From Onthophagus taurus (taxonomy: Eukaryota > Arthropoda > Insecta > Coleoptera > Scarabaeidae), in the NCBI RefSeq assembly GCF_036711975.1, contig NC_091972.1:9987001-10051000 (forward strand): a stretch of DNA of 64,000 nucleotides, written 5' to 3'. The position numbers and the translations under genes are program-made. Under the pieces are notes generated by a model. That model searched no databases. It worked only from the letters and a program-made list of their open reading frames with translations, and had not been told where the DNA came from. Each line of letters begins with the position of its first letter. Within the stretch, counting starts at the first letter, position 1. Shown one piece after another: positions 4,352 through 47,652 of this stretch.

Positions 4352-7300
4352 TTATTTCGAGTCATTCTTGATTAAAGAATTAATTTCATTGATCACCTCA
4401 GAGTTATGTAAAATAGAGACATGGTCTGCATCAATAATCTTAACTTGAACTTGATTTTCAAAATATTTTGATAATCCATAATCGGGCTCAACCTCTTTAT
4501 TAATAGGTCTAAATAATTTTGCCTTAGATTTTAATTTATTTTTGGTTGGGACATAATTTTTGATTCCTTGTAATCGTTTATGGATTGCATAATAAGATTC
4601 CTTGATATATTCTCTTGAAAAATGTTCGTGATTTGAAACTGTATCTAACACAGTTTTGAGTTGAGCGTCAAAAGATGAACATTTTAAGATTTTATTCTAA
4701 AAAAGAATAAAGAATAAGTGTATAAAAAATTATGAATTGATTACCTTGATGTTAATTGAAACATCACTTGGTGCATTTGACGATATGAGTTCTAATAACA
4801 AAGTAGTTTTTAGATAATCTTCATTCTCAATGATGAATATTCTGTGGAACATTTTTTTAAAATATGTTGGCGCACCATCAATAAAAATTAAATTGCAAAT
4901 GATTTCGTGTTGTTCTAATAAATCAGCAAGTTCTAAACCAACCATACAACCATAAGAATAAGAAATAAGGGTAATTTTCTTTTTGTTTTTAGGAAAATTC
5001 TGAAATAAAGAATTAAAATAATATGCTATATTAAATTTAACCTAAATTATTACTTCAAAAATATCTTCAGCTAACATTTGGATGTTATCATTTCTAGCTG
5101 TAAATAAATATTGATATCCGATTGTTTTACATTTTAACATGGAAGTTAAAGGCTTTAAAACACTGCACATTCCCTCAATTCCCGGTAATAAATATATTTC
5201 TGGAGCATCTTCTTTATCCTCAATCAATGAAGGTAATGTAATAAAAGGCAAGTTGCGTAAATGAGGATGTTTCATGTTTCGTAACACAATACTCAACCAA
5301 TCTGTTGATTCTGTTTTAGGTTTTGGTTTGATATCTTCGATAATTTCTCTTTTCTCTGAAAGCTCTTTCAATCTATAAATAACTTCAAATAAATAAAATT
5401 ATTTATAAATAATAACTGGAATTACTTTGTGAAAGTCATCGTTTTAATTTCTTGAGGTGTTAAACTAATATCAAAATCTCTTTCGATAATTTGTTTAATT
5501 TCAACGCCTGTTATTGAATCCATACCAAGTTCTGGGAGGGTTGATTGTAAATTGATCGTTTTTATATCTTTTATACCTAAATAAATAAAAAGTTATATAA
5601 TAATTAACTTATTTACGGAAATACAGCATCTAGATGTAATGTAATGTATTGTATATAGAGATGAAAGAGGAGAATATTCTCAAAAATATTCTCCATTGCA
5701 TAGCGTATACGCAAAATTTGTTAATTGGAGACATTTCAAAAATGAAAGAAATTATACCAAAGCAGCCATTTCCTTACAATAGTATAAAAAGTTTTCTTGA
5801 TACAAAATATGCAGTATATACTCAGTAAACGAGTTGGAAAGTTAATACTGGATAAGAATATTGTTTGGGTAGAAGTTTCAAACTTTTATCACCTAATAAA
5901 CCCTATTGTTAAATACATAACCCAACTAGAAGGAGTGTTTATAGACAATATGGCTACTACTGTAACAAGCCCAGATGAGTCTGCAGAGGTAATGGCAGAA
6001 TTATTTGGAGAAGCATATGTTTTAAAATCCGCTAAACACTAATTAACTAAAAAAATTGTATAAAAGGACATAGTTTTACCCAAAATATTACAAATAACTT
6101 CTTGAACGTTAGCACCAGCATGTTTTTCAGCAACTACCATACTGGAAATAATCGTGGCATCGTGACAGAGAAAATTTTCCAAACGTTCAATACAGTTTGA
6201 AATTCCTTGTTGTAAAGTGCCACCAATTACGACTTCTCGATTCATTTCGTTCATATTAGCAACTAAACCGACCTTTAACAGAAAAAAAATGTTAAAAATT
6301 ATTGATTAAATAATAATTTTTATATATTACATCTCCAATTGCCCCCCATTGTATTGTTAAAGCTGGCAAACCATCTTTATGCCTCTGTTCACAAATTCTT
6401 TCCATTACCGAATTTGACATTCCATAATTTGTTTGTTCTGAGTTACCTCTTCCACAAGATACGGAAGAAAAAACAACAAAATATCTATAAAAGAAAATTG
6501 TGAGTAATAAACTGATGGATAAAATAAAAGAATACCTTAAATTAGGGCAAAATTTTCGTGATATCTGATCTAAATTTTTAGTAGCAAGAGCTTTAGGTTT
6601 AAAAGATTCTTCAAAATCGATTGATGTGAGATCGTTGAATAAACCATCTTTTAAAACAACAGCAAGATTAAAAATGCCATCAACGGGTCCTAACTTTTGC
6701 GCTTCATCAATTAATTCAATACAACCCTTTTCATTTGTAACATCGGCGTTCGAAATAACGATATTATCAAGATATTTTTTCCAAAATCGTATTCTTAAGT
6801 CTTGATACCCCGTGGTGATTCCTTTTCTTGAAACCAACACCAAATGTTTACAACCCTTAACCACTAACCAATCCGCTAATTCCAAACCGAATCCACCCAA
6901 ACCACCTATGATAATATACGAACTATTTTGATCGCAATAAAACTTTGATGTACATTGAAATAAATCCTTTTTGGGAATGATGTTTGATTCTCTTTCTTCG
7001 TTTCGAAGATTAATTAGTACTTTTCCCGTGTGTTTTCCGGTGGACATAAAACGATAAGCATCTTCGATTTGATCTTGAGTAAAAATTGTTCGAGTTAATG
7101 GTTGTATCGAACCATTTTTTAAACCTTCATGCATCATATTTTGTACATTCCTTTTTTCTTTATCATCGCCAACGATAACAACATCCAACATTATTCCGTG
7201 TACATGAATCTTTTTCTTTAAAACTAATAGGTCTATTTCGTTGTTCATCATCAAATCAAGTTTTCCTATTTCAAGCATATGTCCATTTCTTGCCAAACAA

Positions 7301-10300
7301 CGCAAAGAAGCATAAAGGCGTTCACCCGGTAACGAATTTAAAACAATATCAACCCCACGTCCTTTCGTTTGGGAAAAAATTAAAGTTTCGAATGATGTAT
7401 CTCGGGAGTTTCCGATATTATTTGGATTTAAACTTGGGAATTGTTTTAGTAGGAAATCTCGTTTCTCTTGAGAACCAACAGTTGTGAATATTGTGCATTT
7501 GTAAAATAAGGCTAAGTTTATTGCTGCTTGACCAACACCACCAGCACCAGAATGAATTAGTATTGTTTTTTCTTTATTTAATCCACCAGCCTTAAAAAAG
7601 TAAAAAGTTTCGGGTTAAACCCAAATGTTTCTAGTTCTATGTTTAGTGTTAATTCTAGTTTTAGTTGTTATTCCGTGCTAGATCGTTGTATATTTTTTAT
7701 TCAACTAAAACTAGAACTAACACTACACCTACAACTAGAAACATTCAGGTTTAGCCATCTTGAGAGATGTGTGGCTAAACCAAAATGCTTCTAGGTCTAG
7801 TGTTAGTTTTGTACTAGCACTGTCAGTAGAACTAACACTATACCTAGACCTATAATCATTCGGGTTTAGCCACCTTAAGAGACGTTCAGCTAAACTCGAA
7901 TGTTTCCAGTTCTAGGTCTAGTGTTAGCTCTAGTCTTATACTAGCACTGTCATTAGAACTAACACTATACATAGAACTAGAAACATGCGGGTTTAGCCGT
8001 CTTTAGAGACGTTCGGCTAAACCCGAATATTTCTAGTTCTAATGTTAGTTTTAGTGACAGTGCTAGTTATTAATGAGCGCCAGGTTGTTATATATTTGTC
8101 ATCGAACTAAAACTAGAACTAACACTAGACCTAGAATTAGAAACATTCAGGTTTAGCCATCTTAAGAAACGCACAGCTAAACTCGAATGGCTATAACAGA
8201 CACTCCCTTCCCCATATTAATCCGTTATATCGAGGTTTTACTATAATTTAAAGCTTACTCTTTTGAAAGCAACAAGAATCGTTGAATAAACAACAGGAAC
8301 TGTCGCAGCATCTTCCATCGACCAATTATCAGGGATATCATATATTAAGTACTTATCAGCTGGAATTAAAGTTGAAAGAGCACCCCTTTGGCACATTCCA
8401 AATACTCTTCGACCACTAAAAATTTTTAATGCAACAACAGAAATTAAAATTAACATCAAAAATACTTTGAATCACGTCCCGAATATTCTAATCCTTCATA
8501 TCCTTGTCTAAAAACTCTCGTTGTTGCAATCATATCGGAAGGAATTCGTCCTGATGCCGATAAAACATCTTTAAAATTCAACGATGAGTAATAAGCCTAA
8601 TAACATAATAAAAAAATAAACAAAAACGCATTTTATGAACAAAAAATTACGTGAACTAGAATCTCGTCTTTTTCAACAATCGAATCATATTTTAATGGAC
8701 CCTCAACCCATGTTAAAGTGGATAAATCACCGGGATTTTTAACAACGACAAATGTTTGTTCTGAAAAACATTTAGTAGTTTCGTTAATAATTAGATGACG
8801 ATATGTTCCCCAAATTGAATCTTTAAGCACATTAATATGCATTCCTTTTTGTAATTGATCTTGAAAGAATTTTTCTTTAATATTAAAATTGATATCGTCC
8901 ATTATAAAAACGCATTTTACATTCGTTTTTCCGGGTTCTCTTCGTAAGCAATTAATAAATCCTAAAATTCCGTTCAAATCCCTTCCTTTTGATACAATAA
9001 CCGCATTAGGATTAATTTGTAATTCTTCTTTTAATTTTGGAATCCAAGTAAAATCCTGGAAATTATTTGCGAGTTCGAAATAATTTTCGACATTTTGTTT
9101 CGGCGTTTTTTTCAATAAAATCAACATTTCATTTGTGTTTAAAATGGCGTGTTTGGTGAAAATTGTTAAAGCGGGAACATCAAATAATTTCTCAATGTTT
9201 TTTTCTTCGCGGGTTAAAATAAATCCGTTGGGTTCTAAAACGTTTATAATTTCACTAAAATTATTTCCATCGCTTAAAAGGTTATTGGCAATCACTAAAT
9301 GTAACCCGGATTCATATTTAACGGGTTTATCGCTTAAAGTAACTCCCGTTAAATCGATTGGTTTATCAGAAAATAATTTTATATCGGCTTGAATTAATGG
9401 TTGATCTTCAACGGCTTGTTGTAATATTAAACTGAGTGGTTCTCGATTTTTATTATTACTTTCAAACATTTCAAACGATTTTAATTCTTTTTGAGGGTTA
9501 TTTTCTAAGATAATTTGAACGTTAATCCTTATCGATTCTTCTAATGTTAACAATGTTTTGTTTGGAATAAATTTGTACATTTCTATAACCGGTTCTGATA
9601 ATGGCTTTCTTTTAGAAATTTGTTTAAATTCTATTTGACGAATTTGGATTCCTTCAGATCTTATTATTCTCGAATTATTATTAACTTTTACGTCAACGCA
9701 ATTATTTTTTATACTTGCAAAATGAGCTTTTGAATAAATTATTATTTGCTGAATAAAAGTTGGTACAAATAGATTTCTTGTATCTTTTTGTAAAATTTGT
9801 ATTTGCAACATACTATCGATGAAAGTTATCCAATTGTCATCCCATTTTAATTTCATAGAGTTTGCTAGGTTGTTTGATTCGAGGATTCCACGAAATTGAC
9901 CTCTAACAAAAATTAAAAAGATTATAAAAATAAAGAAAGAGTTTGGAAATAATATTTGGATTCTTACAGGTTAGATTTTATATCGAAAAATATTAAGGAA
10001 AATTTATAAAATTGCATTCTTAGAGACTTACAGGTCTTTAAAGTAACCTATTATGAAAAGATTTTGCAAACAGTTCTGCTAACGTGGTCAAGTGAGTTAC
10101 ACACTTTTCAGAAAATATTTTGTTAGAATATTGCTGAACTTTAATATTGCAGCATCTTATTCTACACAATATATCAGGCAAATCTATTCATATGTGAGTA
10201 TTAAGCATATTAATAACTCCACTTCGTGTAAAGCCCATTTCATCAAAAAAGAAAATCATTTTTCTTCATCGCCAGGATTTTCTACAACAGCTTCTAGGAT

Positions 10301-13300
10301 TCATTCTTAATTTATTACATTTATTGTTGTTCTTTTTCTTCATTCAAAAGGTAAAGAGCTGTATTTCTACTATTAATTAGTAGATGTTGTAATACATTTT
10401 TAGCAGTAAATTTTTCTTCTCTAAAGGTTGTTTTAGAACAAAGTTTGAAGAAGCATACTTAGAACAGAAACCAATTAAAGTCGGTGTAAGACACAAGAAA
10501 GTGTATTAGATCTAGTTCTGTACCTCTTATAAAGACGATTAATGATTTTACCAAGAATCTATGAATGAACGAAATTACTTCATTAAATCTTAAGAAAAAT
10601 ATGATAAATATGCAAAATGATGTTCTCCACCAAATTGCAGTGATAGTCAAAATTAATGAAAATCAACTTCAATACCATGAAGTAGTGTTGAAGTACTAGA
10701 AAAAATAAATGAAAATGACTGAGTTGTAATAGAAATAAAACTTTAACTTATATTTTTTGACTTAAAATCTAGTCTGCAAGTATTGCAACGTTATTTCCAA
10801 ACACTTGTGTAAAAGTGAAAATAGAATTACTTGTAATTATATCCTCTTAATTTAAATTCTTTATAAATATCTTTTGTTTGAAGACGTTTTAATTTACTTT
10901 CTCCAGTTAATTCGAAATTAATGAATTCGTCTAATGGTGGTTCGTCTAATTCAAAAACTCTTCCAGAAACAATTACACCATCTTTATCAGTTATATTAAA
11001 AATCCCATTGGGTTCAATAAAAACGTCGAAAGATAAATTTTGTTTTACAGGCACAGTTGTGGCCCGTATAAACTTTATATTTTCCATGCATAAATTTATT
11101 TGATTGAGTTTAGTCCATCTTATTTTGGTTACTGCGTTCATTACTAAATATAAATAACCCGCGGCTGGAAATAAATTTTTTCCTACCACAAACAAAAAAA
11201 TTAAATATTATATCAAAATATTTGATTATAAATACCATTAACAACGTGTCCTGTTATAAAAGACCAATCGTTGTATTTCGTATTAATAACATAACGTTCA
11301 AAGCCTCGACTAACATTAAGTCCATCAACAACAAATTGATCTTTTTTGTGTTCCCATTCGATTAACGGAGAAATCATTGGAGTTTGTTTACTGACGGGAT
11401 ATTTTATTTTTGGATATAACTGATCAAGTTTTAAATTGAAACCATTTTGATACAAACTAAAATAAAAAAAAATAAATTGATGTTTAATTTTTTTTAATAA
11501 ATTACCGCCCCAAAGACGTCAATAAACCACACACGACATCCACTTCATTTCCAAATATATCAATAACGTTCAAATTAGTTGTTTTTAAATCGAGTGATTT
11601 ACCACAATTTAAAATTATTGTATTTGCAGAAAATAGTGAAGAAATTTCGTTCTCTTTCAGATAAAGTAAAGAGTTTAATAAAGTCGATGTTAATTCTTGA
11701 TTGGTTTCGTAAGAATGCTTCCATTTTTGTGAATTAATGATTTTTGAAGGAATCAAATTAGTTAACTCTTGAGAGATTGCAAAATCTAAAACGACAAAGA
11801 ATAATTTATTAATAACAACAAAAAGGGGTAAATTATTACGTGATTTTTGTTGATCATCTTCTTCGTTTTTGTATCCTTCACAAATTTTAAGAATAATTCG
11901 AATAATCTGTTTTAAAGACATTAAATTTTGCATGTAACAACAAACCAATTCACCAATAAAGTTTCCTGAATAAAAATGCGGTTCTATTCCCAATTGTTTC
12001 ATTATTTCAACAATACCAACATGAATTGCAAAGTTTAGAATTAAATTATGAGTAATGTATGTCGGTTTATAATTTGTTAGTAATTCAAATATATTGTATG
12101 ATTTTAAGCCATTTAAAACCCCAAATATTCTTCCAAAAATAAATAGAAGAAATAAATTGATGCAAAAATTAAATAAATTTAAAACTTACCTATTTATGGA
12201 TATTTTAAATGCGCTAAATTTTATTAACGATTTTATGATGTCAGATAGGTTATTGTTGAAAGGATTGAAGAAAAATGCAAGCTTTTTCTGTTTAAAATAG
12301 CCACAAATCGATCTTATTTTTTCTTCGTTTTGTGTAATAATTGTGAATCCTCTAAATCGTTCGTTTGGTAATGATTTGCTAATCAAAAAAAAAAAAAAGT
12401 TTAAACTTTTTTTTCGCTTAATCTTGATCAAAAATAACCAAAGAAAAGTTGAGTTAGGTCAGTTTTCTTTTGAAACCCTAATTATACCGTGAAGAAACCC
12501 CAATTATAGCTTGAAGGAATGTTATCTTAACCATTCCCAAAAGAATTTGTAATTCATTTTCAAAATAAATGCGTAATCAATTCTAACTTTTTTAATAATA
12601 AAATAATTAATTGTTTGGTACCTGAATATTTCGTGAAATAATCCAATATATTCATAATCAGCAGATTCCTTTTTAATATCATCCATAATTGTTAACACAC
12701 CGTTTAGAGTTCTAGCGCTAACACAAACCAATCTAGGTAAATTATCTTTAAATTTACTTTTATCTTTATTTTTATTAAATTGCTGAACTAATACATGACC
12801 GTTTGCTCCACCAAATCCAAAATTATTAATTGCTTAAAAGATTTGTTTGAATTAATAAGTAAATACCAAAACAAAAATTTTACCAATTAGTCCATTATTA
12901 TTTTCCCATTTCGTTTTTTCCGTAACGACTTTAATTCGTCCATCACGAAAAGCTTCGACATCCAATCGCGGTGTTTTAAAATTTATGTTCGGCGGAATAA
13001 AATTATTTTCAAAAGTATAAATTACTTTTGTTAAGGAACAAAGAAAAGAGGCGGGTTCGGTGTGCCCAATATTCGATTTGGTCGAACCAATTAACAATGT
13101 GTCTTTACGATTTTTACAAAAAACTTCATTTATGGCGATTACTTCCTCTGGATCACCAACTTTTGTACCTAAAAATTTATTTAAAAAAAAAATAATCATG
13201 TTATATTTAAAGCAAACCTGTTCCGTGTGCTTCAACATATGAAATAGTCGATGGTAAAACGCCACATTCTTCATAAAATTCGTTTAATAAAGCAATTTGA

Positions 13301-14365
13301 ACATCGCTAGCGGGATAAGTAATTCCATTCGGTTTATAACCGTCACTATTCACTTTCGAATGAATTGTTCTAGCATAAATCCTTCTCGCATTTTTTTCTT
13401 TTTGTAAGAAAATCGCTACCGCGGATTCAGATCGAACGTAACCATTTGCGTCTTGATCAAACGCTCGACAAATCCCTTCAGGACTTAACATTCCAAGTCT
13501 ATTAAATTATAACAAAGCGTTTCAACAAAAAAATTAATTTAATTTTAAATTATTTACCTTGCAAATTGTAACGAAAAATAAGGCGATATACAAATATTCA
13601 CCCCAGTTACAATGGCTTGATCACACATACCCTTTCTAATATTTTCATACGCTATGTTAAAGGCGTGAATTGAACTACTACAAGCTGTGTCAACGATGAA
13701 TGACTTTCCAGTTAATTTGAGAAAATAGCTTAATATTTGTGCTTCCATTGAACGTGCGCAACTTAAATTTTTAATCAAAATTTAATTAAAACGATAAATA
13801 TATTATAAAAAAATCTTACCTCATTACCCCACCAGAATTTAGCACCGGATGTTCGTAATACATTTTCTTTTCTGTTTCTGAGGAACAAACGCCAACAATA
13901 ATATCCGTTTTTGTCCCTTCTAATTCCGTTGGATTAAATCCGGCATCAATGATGGCTTCTATTGCTCTTTCAAGAGTCACTCTTAACATTGGATCTGCAT
14001 AATAAGCATGGCGTTGTGGAAATCCTAATAAAAACGTAATGGTGAGTTTAAGAATTTAACATTGAAATTTGTACCAAAATATCCCGCATCTAATTTGTTA
14101 ATAAAATTTATTTTTCCTGTTCTTTGTGGAATTTCATCGTGAGTTTTTCTCCATCTTCTTGTATCATCAGAAACCAAATCGATTTTATTATAAAGGGATT
14201 CCGCGAATATTCGTGTGTTATCTGCATCTGGATATCTTCCTGATAAACCTATGGAAAAACCAAATATGGTCTTCTTGTTAAAATCTTATTATTATAAATA
14301 CCTGAAATTACAACAGCTTCTCCAGGTTTTGGATGAGCAAGTTTATATCCAAAAGTCTCCCCCAT
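4352..14365 (-). CDS. Multidomain fatty acid synthase with a degenerate malonyl/acetyl-transferase domain
   Basis: Animal type I fatty acid synthase, about 2,255 residues in 22 exons: 14365-14302, 14248-14075, 14024-13820, 13761-13558, 13498-13218, 13168-12884, 12832-12622, 12378-12190, 12129-11840, 11785-11506, 11456-11236, 11182-10831, 9902-8651, 8596-8466, 8415-8259, 7590-6536, 6484-6331, 6272-6080, 5576-5426, 5372-5054, 4999-4745, 4696-4352. Every junction keeps frame. Ketosynthase: Cys175 in DTACSSS, then EAHGTG and IGHTEPAS. Dehydratase: His798 in TGHVVNG, Asp in FIDSMLQ. Enoylreductase: HSGAGGVGQAA. Ketoreductase: GGLGGFG, FSSVSCGRG and the downstream Tyr. ACP: Ser1920 in LGMDS. Thioesterase: Ser2071 in SYSYG, Asp in FIDGAPT, His in DADHVSIL. 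The transferase (about 460-745) has GNFIGE (593-598) where GHSxGE is expected, lacks the GxGxQ oxyanion motif and is about 100 residues short. Start chosen as MGETFGYKLAHP, leading into VVISGLSGRYPDAD. It is shorter than usual FAS (about 2,400-2,500) mainly because of the transferase loss. Confidence 0.95.
5577..6079. other. FAS intron 18 with an unrecognised opposite-strand open frame
   Basis: This 503-bp intron is long for the 3' half of the gene. On the plus strand it carries an 81-codon open frame (5797-6042) whose C-terminal half reads like real protein (TSPDESAEVMAELFGEAYVL). I do not recognise it; it may be a fragment of a mobile-element protein captured in the intron. Confidence 0.35.
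7591..8258. repeat. Cluster of CTAG-arm palindromic repeats in FAS intron 15
   Basis: The intron consists almost entirely of alternating copies of a CTAG-rich arm (units such as CTAGTTCTAG and AGTGTTAGTTCTAG) and a palindromic core of the type GGGTTTAGCCGTCTTTAGAG followed by its inverse. Four full cores lie near 7750-7795, 7855-7905, 7985-8035 and 8140-8190, and a partial one near 7610. Splice sites on both sides remain in frame, so the gene tolerates the cluster. Confidence 0.85.
9903..10830. other. FAS intron 12 (928 bp), no recognisable content
   Basis: A long intron between the two halves of the dehydratase domain. It contains short open frames on both strands that resemble nothing I know. 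No inverted repeats of the dispersed families were seen. Confidence 0.5.
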
Positions 14366-32192: not shown

Positions 32193-43643
<11,451 letters not shown>

Positions 43644-46464: not shown

Positions 46465-47652
46465 TTAAAAGTTATAATTTTGGAAATGAATGAAATCCCT
46501 GACTGCGTTAATCATGTTTTCTTTATAAGAATCGTTCATTAATTTCATATAAACGTTATCTAAATGATAATTTCGCGATATGTCGTCTAAATTGATATAA
46601 AAAACTGGTAAAAATATAAAACAACATAACATTCCATACAAAGTAAATGTTTTCATTTCGTTTTGGATCCATTGTAAGGTCATTTTATTGATTAGATTCG
46701 AATCTATATCGTTTTCGAACGAAAATCGTTTTAAATTTTCAATGTAACACTCCAATAATTCTTTGAAATTCGTTTTTCTGTTTTCTGAATCGAGATTTAT
46801 CCATAAAAAATATACTAAATCCATTGCTGGTGAGCCATAATGTAACATTTGAAAATCAATTATTTTAATATCAACGTCGTTTTTGAAAAATATGTTATTT
46901 CCCCATAAATCGCCGTGATTTAGAACTTTAATTTCGGTTGGTTTTTCAAAAATTTCAATTACTTTTGAATAAACATTTTCTTTCAAGCTTTTTAAAAATG
47001 TCACAATTTCCGAATTTTCTTCAAAAATTTTAATCGACGTATTTAAATGGTCTAAGTAACATTTTTCTAATAATTGATTCCCTTCTTTATTCATAAAAGA
47101 ATGAAGATTACTTAACACTTCTAAAAATGACTTGGAATCTTTGATTTGTAACGATAAAGATGCTGAATGCATTTTTGAAATTTCTTTAATCACCAATTTA
47201 GCTTCATTTAAATCAAATCTATGACCTTTTGGTTTTGTTTTAAAACCATCTAGAGTTAAATCTTCAAAAATTAAATGTTTTTCATTATTATAAAAACATT
47301 TAGGGGTTTTTAAAGTACTTCTGGAATACTTATTGAGCAGATTTAAAATGGTTTTATAAAAAATGGATTCGTTCTGAAATTGTTTATCAAAATTGTGGGA
47401 TTGAGTTGCTGGGTTGGTTGAAAAAGTTTTCAAAATAAGACTAGTTTGAAAATCAATATCTACAAAAAAAAAAAAGAAATTTATTTATTAATTTTTTAAA
47501 GCGATTTTTGTTAACCTACCATTTTTAATTCCATAAATAAAAATACGTTCAACTTTCGACACAAAATTCTCACCTATTTCACAAGCATTTTCAATTTTTA
47601 AGTTTGAAACTTTAAGATTTAAAAGTTTTTCGAAAAATTCTTTATCAAACAT
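46465..47652 (-). CDS. EcKinase-like (ecdysteroid kinase-like / CHK) family protein
   Basis: Two exons, 47652-47520 and 47459-46465, encode 375 residues. The phosphotransferase fold is marked by HLIFEDLT (nucleotide cleft), the catalytic loop VLNHGDLWGNNIFF and the metal-binding IKIIDFQ, then YGSPAMDLVYFL, as in the insect EcKinase-like (DUF1679/CHK) family. Some members phosphorylate ecdysteroid 22-hydroxyl groups; others are linked to detoxification. The specific substrate cannot be told here. The N-terminus (MFDKEFFEKLLN) is short but includes the usual first helix. No signal peptide. Confidence 0.9.

Follow-up and report, generated by a model that had tools for sequence, protein, structure and literature searches.

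The MAT (malonyl/acetyltransferase) domain of FASW, a fatty acid synthase (FAS) encoded in the genome of the beetle Onthophagus taurus, is almost certainly inactive, and the gene as a whole is very probably functional, as judged from its sequence. With the MAT dead and the catalytic residues of the other domains kept, loading from elsewhere is the sensible reading, and we consider it likely that FASW is charged in trans. We propose that FASW is a working MAT-less animal-type FAS, the ACP of which would receive starter and extender from a MAT on another polypeptide. The likeliest donor would be the paralogue FAS2 on contig C3: its KS, KR and ACP have been inactivated or lost, and its MAT remains intact and conserved. 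Joined by their KS scaffolds, both chains would form a heterodimer, FASW being responsible for condensation, reduction and carriage and FAS2 for loading. Taken as a whole, with a working MAT-less FASW loaded in trans, most likely by FAS2 in a heterodimer, this is the explanation towards which we lean; the specific assignment of FAS2 as the donor is plausible and is held with some doubt.

Gene model and domain composition of FASW

The window, which is the whole stretch of 64,000 nucleotides analysed here (C7:9987001-10051000), belongs to a genome that was searched over 290.8 Mb in 33 contigs. FASW was modelled by spliced protein-to-genome alignment with the canonical FAS of the same genome (FAS1) as the query, and both ends were completed by hand. 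Exon 1 was placed manually at 14365-14302, as was the acceptor of exon 2 at 14248, for which there is an in-frame alternative at 14284. All introns (20/20) have GT-AG borders and the single stop codon is terminal; no pseudogene marks such as frame breaks or lost splice sites were found over the 2,267 codons and 20 introns. A sequence-only reading of this DNA had described 22 exons joining in frame over 6,768 nt. The in-frame joining holds, but with 21 exons and 6,804 nt including the stop, and the accompanying view that this is not a pseudogene agrees with the open frame, the intron borders and the kept residues of the non-MAT domains. Alignment to FAS1 and human FAS showed that the domain order on the single chain, KS-MAT-DH-pseudoME/KR-ER-KR-ACP-TE, matches animal-type type I FAS, with the MAT present only as a remnant. 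The features are as follows, in window coordinates.

4352-14365, minus strand: whole FAS gene (FASW), spliced model of 21 exons, CDS of 6,804 nt with stop, 2,267 amino acids
12747-14302, minus strand: KS, residues about 22-433; Cys175 (13682-13680), His307 (13227-13225) and His345 (13064-13062) kept
12291-12746, minus strand: KS-MAT linker, residues about 434-504; PF16197 C-terminal half at 30.4 bits, below the cut-off of 33
11508-12290, minus strand: MAT remnant, residues about 505-745, in exon 8 (12378-12190, part) and exon 9 (12129-11506); no PF00698 match
9602-11296, minus strand: DH, residues about 800-1037; His816 and Asp966 kept; PF21089 at 23.7 bits, below the cut-off of 27
8738-9601, minus strand: pseudo-ME/pseudo-KR structural region; PF21149 at 88.2 bits
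6934-8737, minus strand: ER; NADPH loop SGAGGVG kept; PF13602 and PF00107 over cut-off
6120-6933, minus strand: KR; Lys1781, Ser1809, Tyr1822 and Asn kept; PF08659 at 134.4 bits
5327-6119, minus strand: ACP; phosphopantetheine Ser1938 (5517-5515); PF00550 at 39.9 bits (cut-off 20.8)
4355-5206, minus strand: TE; Ser2089, Asp2115 and His2245; PF00975 at 26.3 bits, just below the cut-off of 26.4

The catalytic residues of the non-MAT domains, which had been noted as present, were recovered in the new model: three of three in KS, four of four each in DH and KR, the Lys, Asp and NADPH loop of ER, the ACP Ser, and the Ser and Asp of TE, the TE His (H2245) being placed by eye. Identity to FAS1 amounts to 54% for KR, 53% for KS (206/391), 51% for ACP, 47% for ER and 32% for DH, and to 24% for both TE and MAT. 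By this measure the TE is the second weakest part of the protein: it keeps its residues, yet it is as divergent as the MAT overall.

The MAT was aligned with the reference sequences of human FAS (PDB 9b7z), FAS1, FAS2 and FAS4. The FASW motif GNFIGE (11966-11949, starting at residue 593) aligns with GHSLGE of human FAS and with GHSVGE of its paralogues FAS1 and FAS2. The rebuilt model and this alignment thus confirm the earlier claim of a replaced GHSxGE loop, with Ser to Phe at residue 595 (11960-11958) and His to Asn at 594. The claim that the GxGxQ oxyanion motif is replaced by FFFNPFNNNL was confirmed as well: this segment occupies the SGMGSQW position of the other FASs (FNPFNNN for SGMGSQ), and the replacement begins at 12266. 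The columns of MAT Arg606 and His683 (human numbering) are gaps in FASW, and the number of catalytic residues kept is 0/4. FASW is therefore FAS-derived and not a self-sufficient FAS. From the MAT motif to the post-MAT LGR/LGK there are 150 residues in FASW as compared to 220 in human FAS, FAS1 and FAS2; the reported loss of the segment with the catalytic His stands, with a shortfall of 70 instead of about 100 residues. The remnant is 24% identical to FAS1 over 242/316 positions, and no PF00698 match was found in FASW up to E 0.1, whereas the FAS2 MAT scores 246.7 bits. AlphaFold2 on exon 9 alone gave a mean pLDDT of 37.8, too low to be of use, and a search meant to gather prokaryotic relatives for an alignment yielded a single locus.

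Transcripts with extra exons restoring the loop and the missing segment would have overturned the sequence-only reading. Such exons could not fit, since the gap lies inside the uninterrupted exon 9 and the flanking introns measure 60 and 49 nt; a hidden exon was rejected on these grounds. At 29% GC, exon 9 is free of stops over the 207 codons of its own frame; each of the remaining five frames contains 10 to 27.

Intron 14 of FASW holds an imperfect 127-bp tandem repeat of 2.9 copies (window 7712-8053). Other features of the window are a reading frame with an SMC hinge (PF06470) and partial SMC matches (33034-34611), a 592-aa open frame with a full match to a Mutator-like transposase (40121-41896; PF20700, 256.5 bits) and an ecdysteroid-kinase-like gene (46468-47484; PF02958, 162.2 bits). 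The genome contains 134 matches to PF02949 (7tm_6), compared with none in any of 14 control genomes, which agrees with an insect origin; we take PF02949 to represent insect odorant receptors, a family specific to insects. The telomere repeat TTAGG gave one array with two overlapping matches, the reversed control ten matches.

Paralogues and domain-wise rates of evolution

Using the KS, the KR and the N-terminal 976 amino acids of FAS1 as queries, which makes the counts lower bounds, at least four FAS loci were found in the genome (FAS1, FASW, FAS2 and FAS4). FAS1, at C1:39.22 Mb, keeps all checked residues and has a complete MAT; the stretch separating its exons 2 and 3 (C1:39221798-39222271, loci L047-L048) contains retroelement-like peptide frames with, by eye, the look of an integrase zinc finger. 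The two other loci are:

C3:10458450-10494527 (loci L049-L053): FAS2, a near mirror image of FASW
C2:9681255-9685224 (loci L061-L063): FAS4, a second FAS with a dead MAT

In the KS of FAS2, Trp stands in place of the Cys and Tyr in place of one His; the second His is the one residue retained (1/3). DH keeps 2/4 and KR 0/4 residues, PF00550 (ACP) has no match in the locus, and the MAT is complete (4/4). The FAS2 MAT is 54% identical to that of FAS1, as compared to 24-40% for the other FAS2 domains. Despite its two substitutions the dead KS still matches PF00109 with 179.0 bits, and a profile search would therefore miss the loss. FAS2 also keeps the TE Ser and Asp, the ER Lys and the DH His; a search of the 8.46 kb beyond the last modelled exon revealed no TE His. 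A methylmalonyl signature was considered for the FAS2 MAT and rejected: the X of GHSXGE is Val and not the Met that PMC7280274 describes for EcPKS1, and a special extender is thus not hinted at.

Whole-genome searching with PF00698 gave three matches. Two are FAS1 and FAS2; the third, at C1:36.27 Mb with 59.3 bits, is a stand-alone AT, probably the mitochondrial enzyme. These are the candidate donors for FASW, and few MAT donors therefore exist. A stand-alone KS at C2:18.11 Mb, 28% identical to FAS1, is not a FAS.

FAS4 keeps KS 3/3, has lost its MAT (motif GIGYGE; where the alignment is gapped, a His falls on the His683 column) and carries a DH His to Tyr change. It stops after the pseudo-ME/KR region, beyond which no ER, KR, ACP or TE was found, and could be either a pseudogene or a gene that has been truncated; a reading frame that by eye resembles a reverse transcriptase lies 0.5 kb past its end. 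That FASW and FAS4 lost their MAT in a single event is weakly supported. The KS tree groups the two (97), and their common stem is 0.61 in the MAT tree versus 0.18 in the KS tree. Against a single loss, the two MATs are only 19% identical (33/178), which is below the identity of each to FAS1, with 49% for the KS, and the deletions differ in size (70 residues in FASW, 109 in FAS4). The grouping of FASW and FAS4 in the MAT tree (82) may be a long-branch effect.

The domains of the paralogues have evolved at unequal rates. Branches in the KS tree are 0.42 for FASW, 0.40 for human FAS and 1.00 for FAS2; in the MAT tree they are 2.10 for FASW, 1.73 for FAS4 and 0.39 for FAS2. Branch lengths per domain, in the order FAS1, FASW, FAS2, are:

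KS: 0.26, 0.53, 0.92
Linker: 1.03, 0.99, 0.60
MAT: 0.45, 3.59, 0.43
DH: 0.84, 1.06, 1.85
Pseudo region: 0.60, 1.43, 2.00
ER: 0.24, 0.80, 1.34
KR: 0.29, 0.45, 1.60
ACP: 0.81, 0.00, 2.50
TE: 1.04, 1.19, 1.05

Thus FAS2 is fast in every domain but the linker, the MAT and the TE, and FASW is very fast in the MAT only. Proportional KS and MAT branch lengths were rejected (2dlnL 139.7, df 6), and on gap-free columns the KS versus MAT statistic was 114.1 for five sequences and 128.8 without FAS4. The MAT branch lengths may be overestimated if the decayed MAT is poorly aligned, but the comparison of FAS2 with human FAS and FAS1, in which no decayed MAT is involved, was still significant (28.1). When columns were shuffled between KS and MAT, 0/60 shuffles reached the statistic in each of these three sets; the highest values under the null were 14.0, 8.2 and 6.0. 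Tests on further sets (df 2 each) gave 20.9 for human, FAS1 and FASW, 10.9 for human, FAS1 and FAS4, and 110.6 for FAS1, FASW and FAS2.

Related synthases and the proposed source of acyl groups

In the trans-AT polyketide synthases of bacteria, the elongating polypeptide lacks an AT, which is supplied in trans; their AT-docking stub is smaller than the MAT remnant of FASW. Like these enzymes, FASW has an elongating chain without AT, with KS and ACP kept, and an AT would be expected in trans. In contrast to them, no stand-alone AT lies beside FASW, and the putative donor is a FAS-like paralogue of full length that is encoded on a different contig. Type II PKS systems use KS-alpha/chain-length-factor (CLF) pairs, and as an analogy only, the active FASW KS could pair with the Cys-less KS of FAS2. 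In 2001 Rangan reportedly obtained heterodimers of animal FAS chains in vitro. Pairing of FASW and FAS2 through the KS scaffold is suggested after both models, KS/CLF dimers (a KS-CLF pair is given in the abstract of PMC8358021) and in vitro animal FAS heterodimers.

MAT-less insect FASs are already known. According to Finck 2016 (PMC5039406), cluster II FASs have lost the MAT in three insect orders or more, among them Orthoptera, Coleoptera and Diptera, and purifying selection is reported there (dN/dS of ortholog pairs 0 to 0.129). As described there, cluster II members (Tribolium TC15337, Chorthippus FAS II-a/c) resemble FASW in having the full layout without a recognisable MAT and in sitting beside normal and aberrant FASs in the same species. 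FASW likewise combines an undetectable MAT with the other FAS domains; it is likened to cluster II by description, and its MAT loss is resolved to residues, whereas Finck 2016 deals in detected domains. For the leaf beetle Colaphellus bowringi, PMC5223116 describes a transcribed FAS1 (KU516006) of 2,276 aa with KS, DH, ER, KR and ACP detected, and Acyl_transf_1 and Thioesterase not detected. By description, this protein has nearly the size of FASW (2,267 aa) and the same detectable domain set, the FASW match to PF00975 missing its cut-off by 0.1 bit. The statement of the sequence-only reading that this would be an uncommon architecture for an animal FAS is not supported in view of these reports, while the dead MAT and the kept domains speak for its proposal that acyl groups come from a second synthase or from a transferase acting in trans.

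FAS2 resembles the cluster III FASs, for example Tribolium TC000238, in lacking an ACP, in its altered DH, ER and KR and in having a MAT; Finck 2016 (PMC5039406) describes cluster III as without PP domain, with DH, ER, KR and TE altered and KS and MAT unmodified. In contrast, the FAS2 KS is dead by residue though positive by profile. Locusta FAS3, too, is given as lacking an ACP in PMC11855270. The AFPK paper (PMC10764717) regroups many arthropod "FAS" paralogues as FAS-like PKSs. No proposal of a split or heterodimeric insect FAS was found in the openly available literature that was searched; the reciprocal residue-level loss in the paralogue FAS2, seen in one genome, is what we did not find in print.

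As the donor for FASW we prefer FAS2, since it has kept a conserved MAT while lacking any ACP that this MAT could serve within the same protein. Against this choice, FAS1 has a normal MAT and could donate it, either in a FAS1-FASW heterodimer or by promiscuous loading; of the KS domains, that of FAS1 is the most similar to the FASW one (53%), and animal FAS chains heterodimerise in vitro (PMC6173736). We regard FAS1 as the donor as rather unlikely, for this would leave unexplained why the FAS2 MAT stayed slow after KS, KR and ACP were lost. Nor is FAS2 simply a MAT: it retains residues in TE, ER and DH as listed above, its TE is no faster and its linker is slower than those of FAS1.

The weak TE of FASW (26.3 bits versus 26.4) counts against the proposed synthase. 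Together with the lack of a visible loading route in a protein without MAT, it fits a modifying enzyme or scaffold that takes ready-made acyl chains, such as acyl-ACP, or carries out one reductive step, and that is not a chain builder; Finck 2016 (PMC5039406) also leaves the FAS status of TC15337 undecided. Such a role is improbable: the KS Cys-His-His, the ACP Ser and the KR tetrad are kept and the KS has evolved at a normal rate, similar to the human one, all of which speaks for condensation on the ACP that FASW itself carries. Less probable still is a recent pseudogene or an assembly error, for which the lost MAT residues and the truncated sister FAS4, perhaps itself a pseudogene, could be cited. 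The open codons and canonical introns, on which a pseudogene was ruled out, speak against it, as do the kept residues of six domains, the MAT exon that is open in one frame only at its low GC content, the decay of the MAT at a second locus (FAS4) and the reported transcription of similar genes in other insects.

On loading by FAS2, we tentatively envisage an insect two-subunit FAS that would have arisen by reciprocal decay of duplicated single-chain FASs, with FASW condensing, reducing, carrying and releasing, and FAS2 loading on a dead KS-shaped scaffold. Insect FASs that lack a MAT or an ACP have long been on record, yet no mechanism has accompanied them, and residue-level complementarity makes a testable pair of them. 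If true, FASW/FAS2 would be an animal counterpart of the trans-AT and KS/CLF systems. It would also give a clear example of a megaenzyme whose copies subfunctionalised by losing domains. It would account for the retention and the RNAi phenotypes of both the cluster II genes, which have no MAT, and the cluster III genes, which have no ACP; in Tribolium, RNAi mortality is given as 60%/40% for the MAT-less TC15337 and 100% for the cluster-III-like TC000238 (PMC5039406). Were the split synthase false, a retained synthase with a dead MAT would still want explaining; if it is true, it would bear on the special fatty acids behind insect cuticular hydrocarbons and waterproofing.
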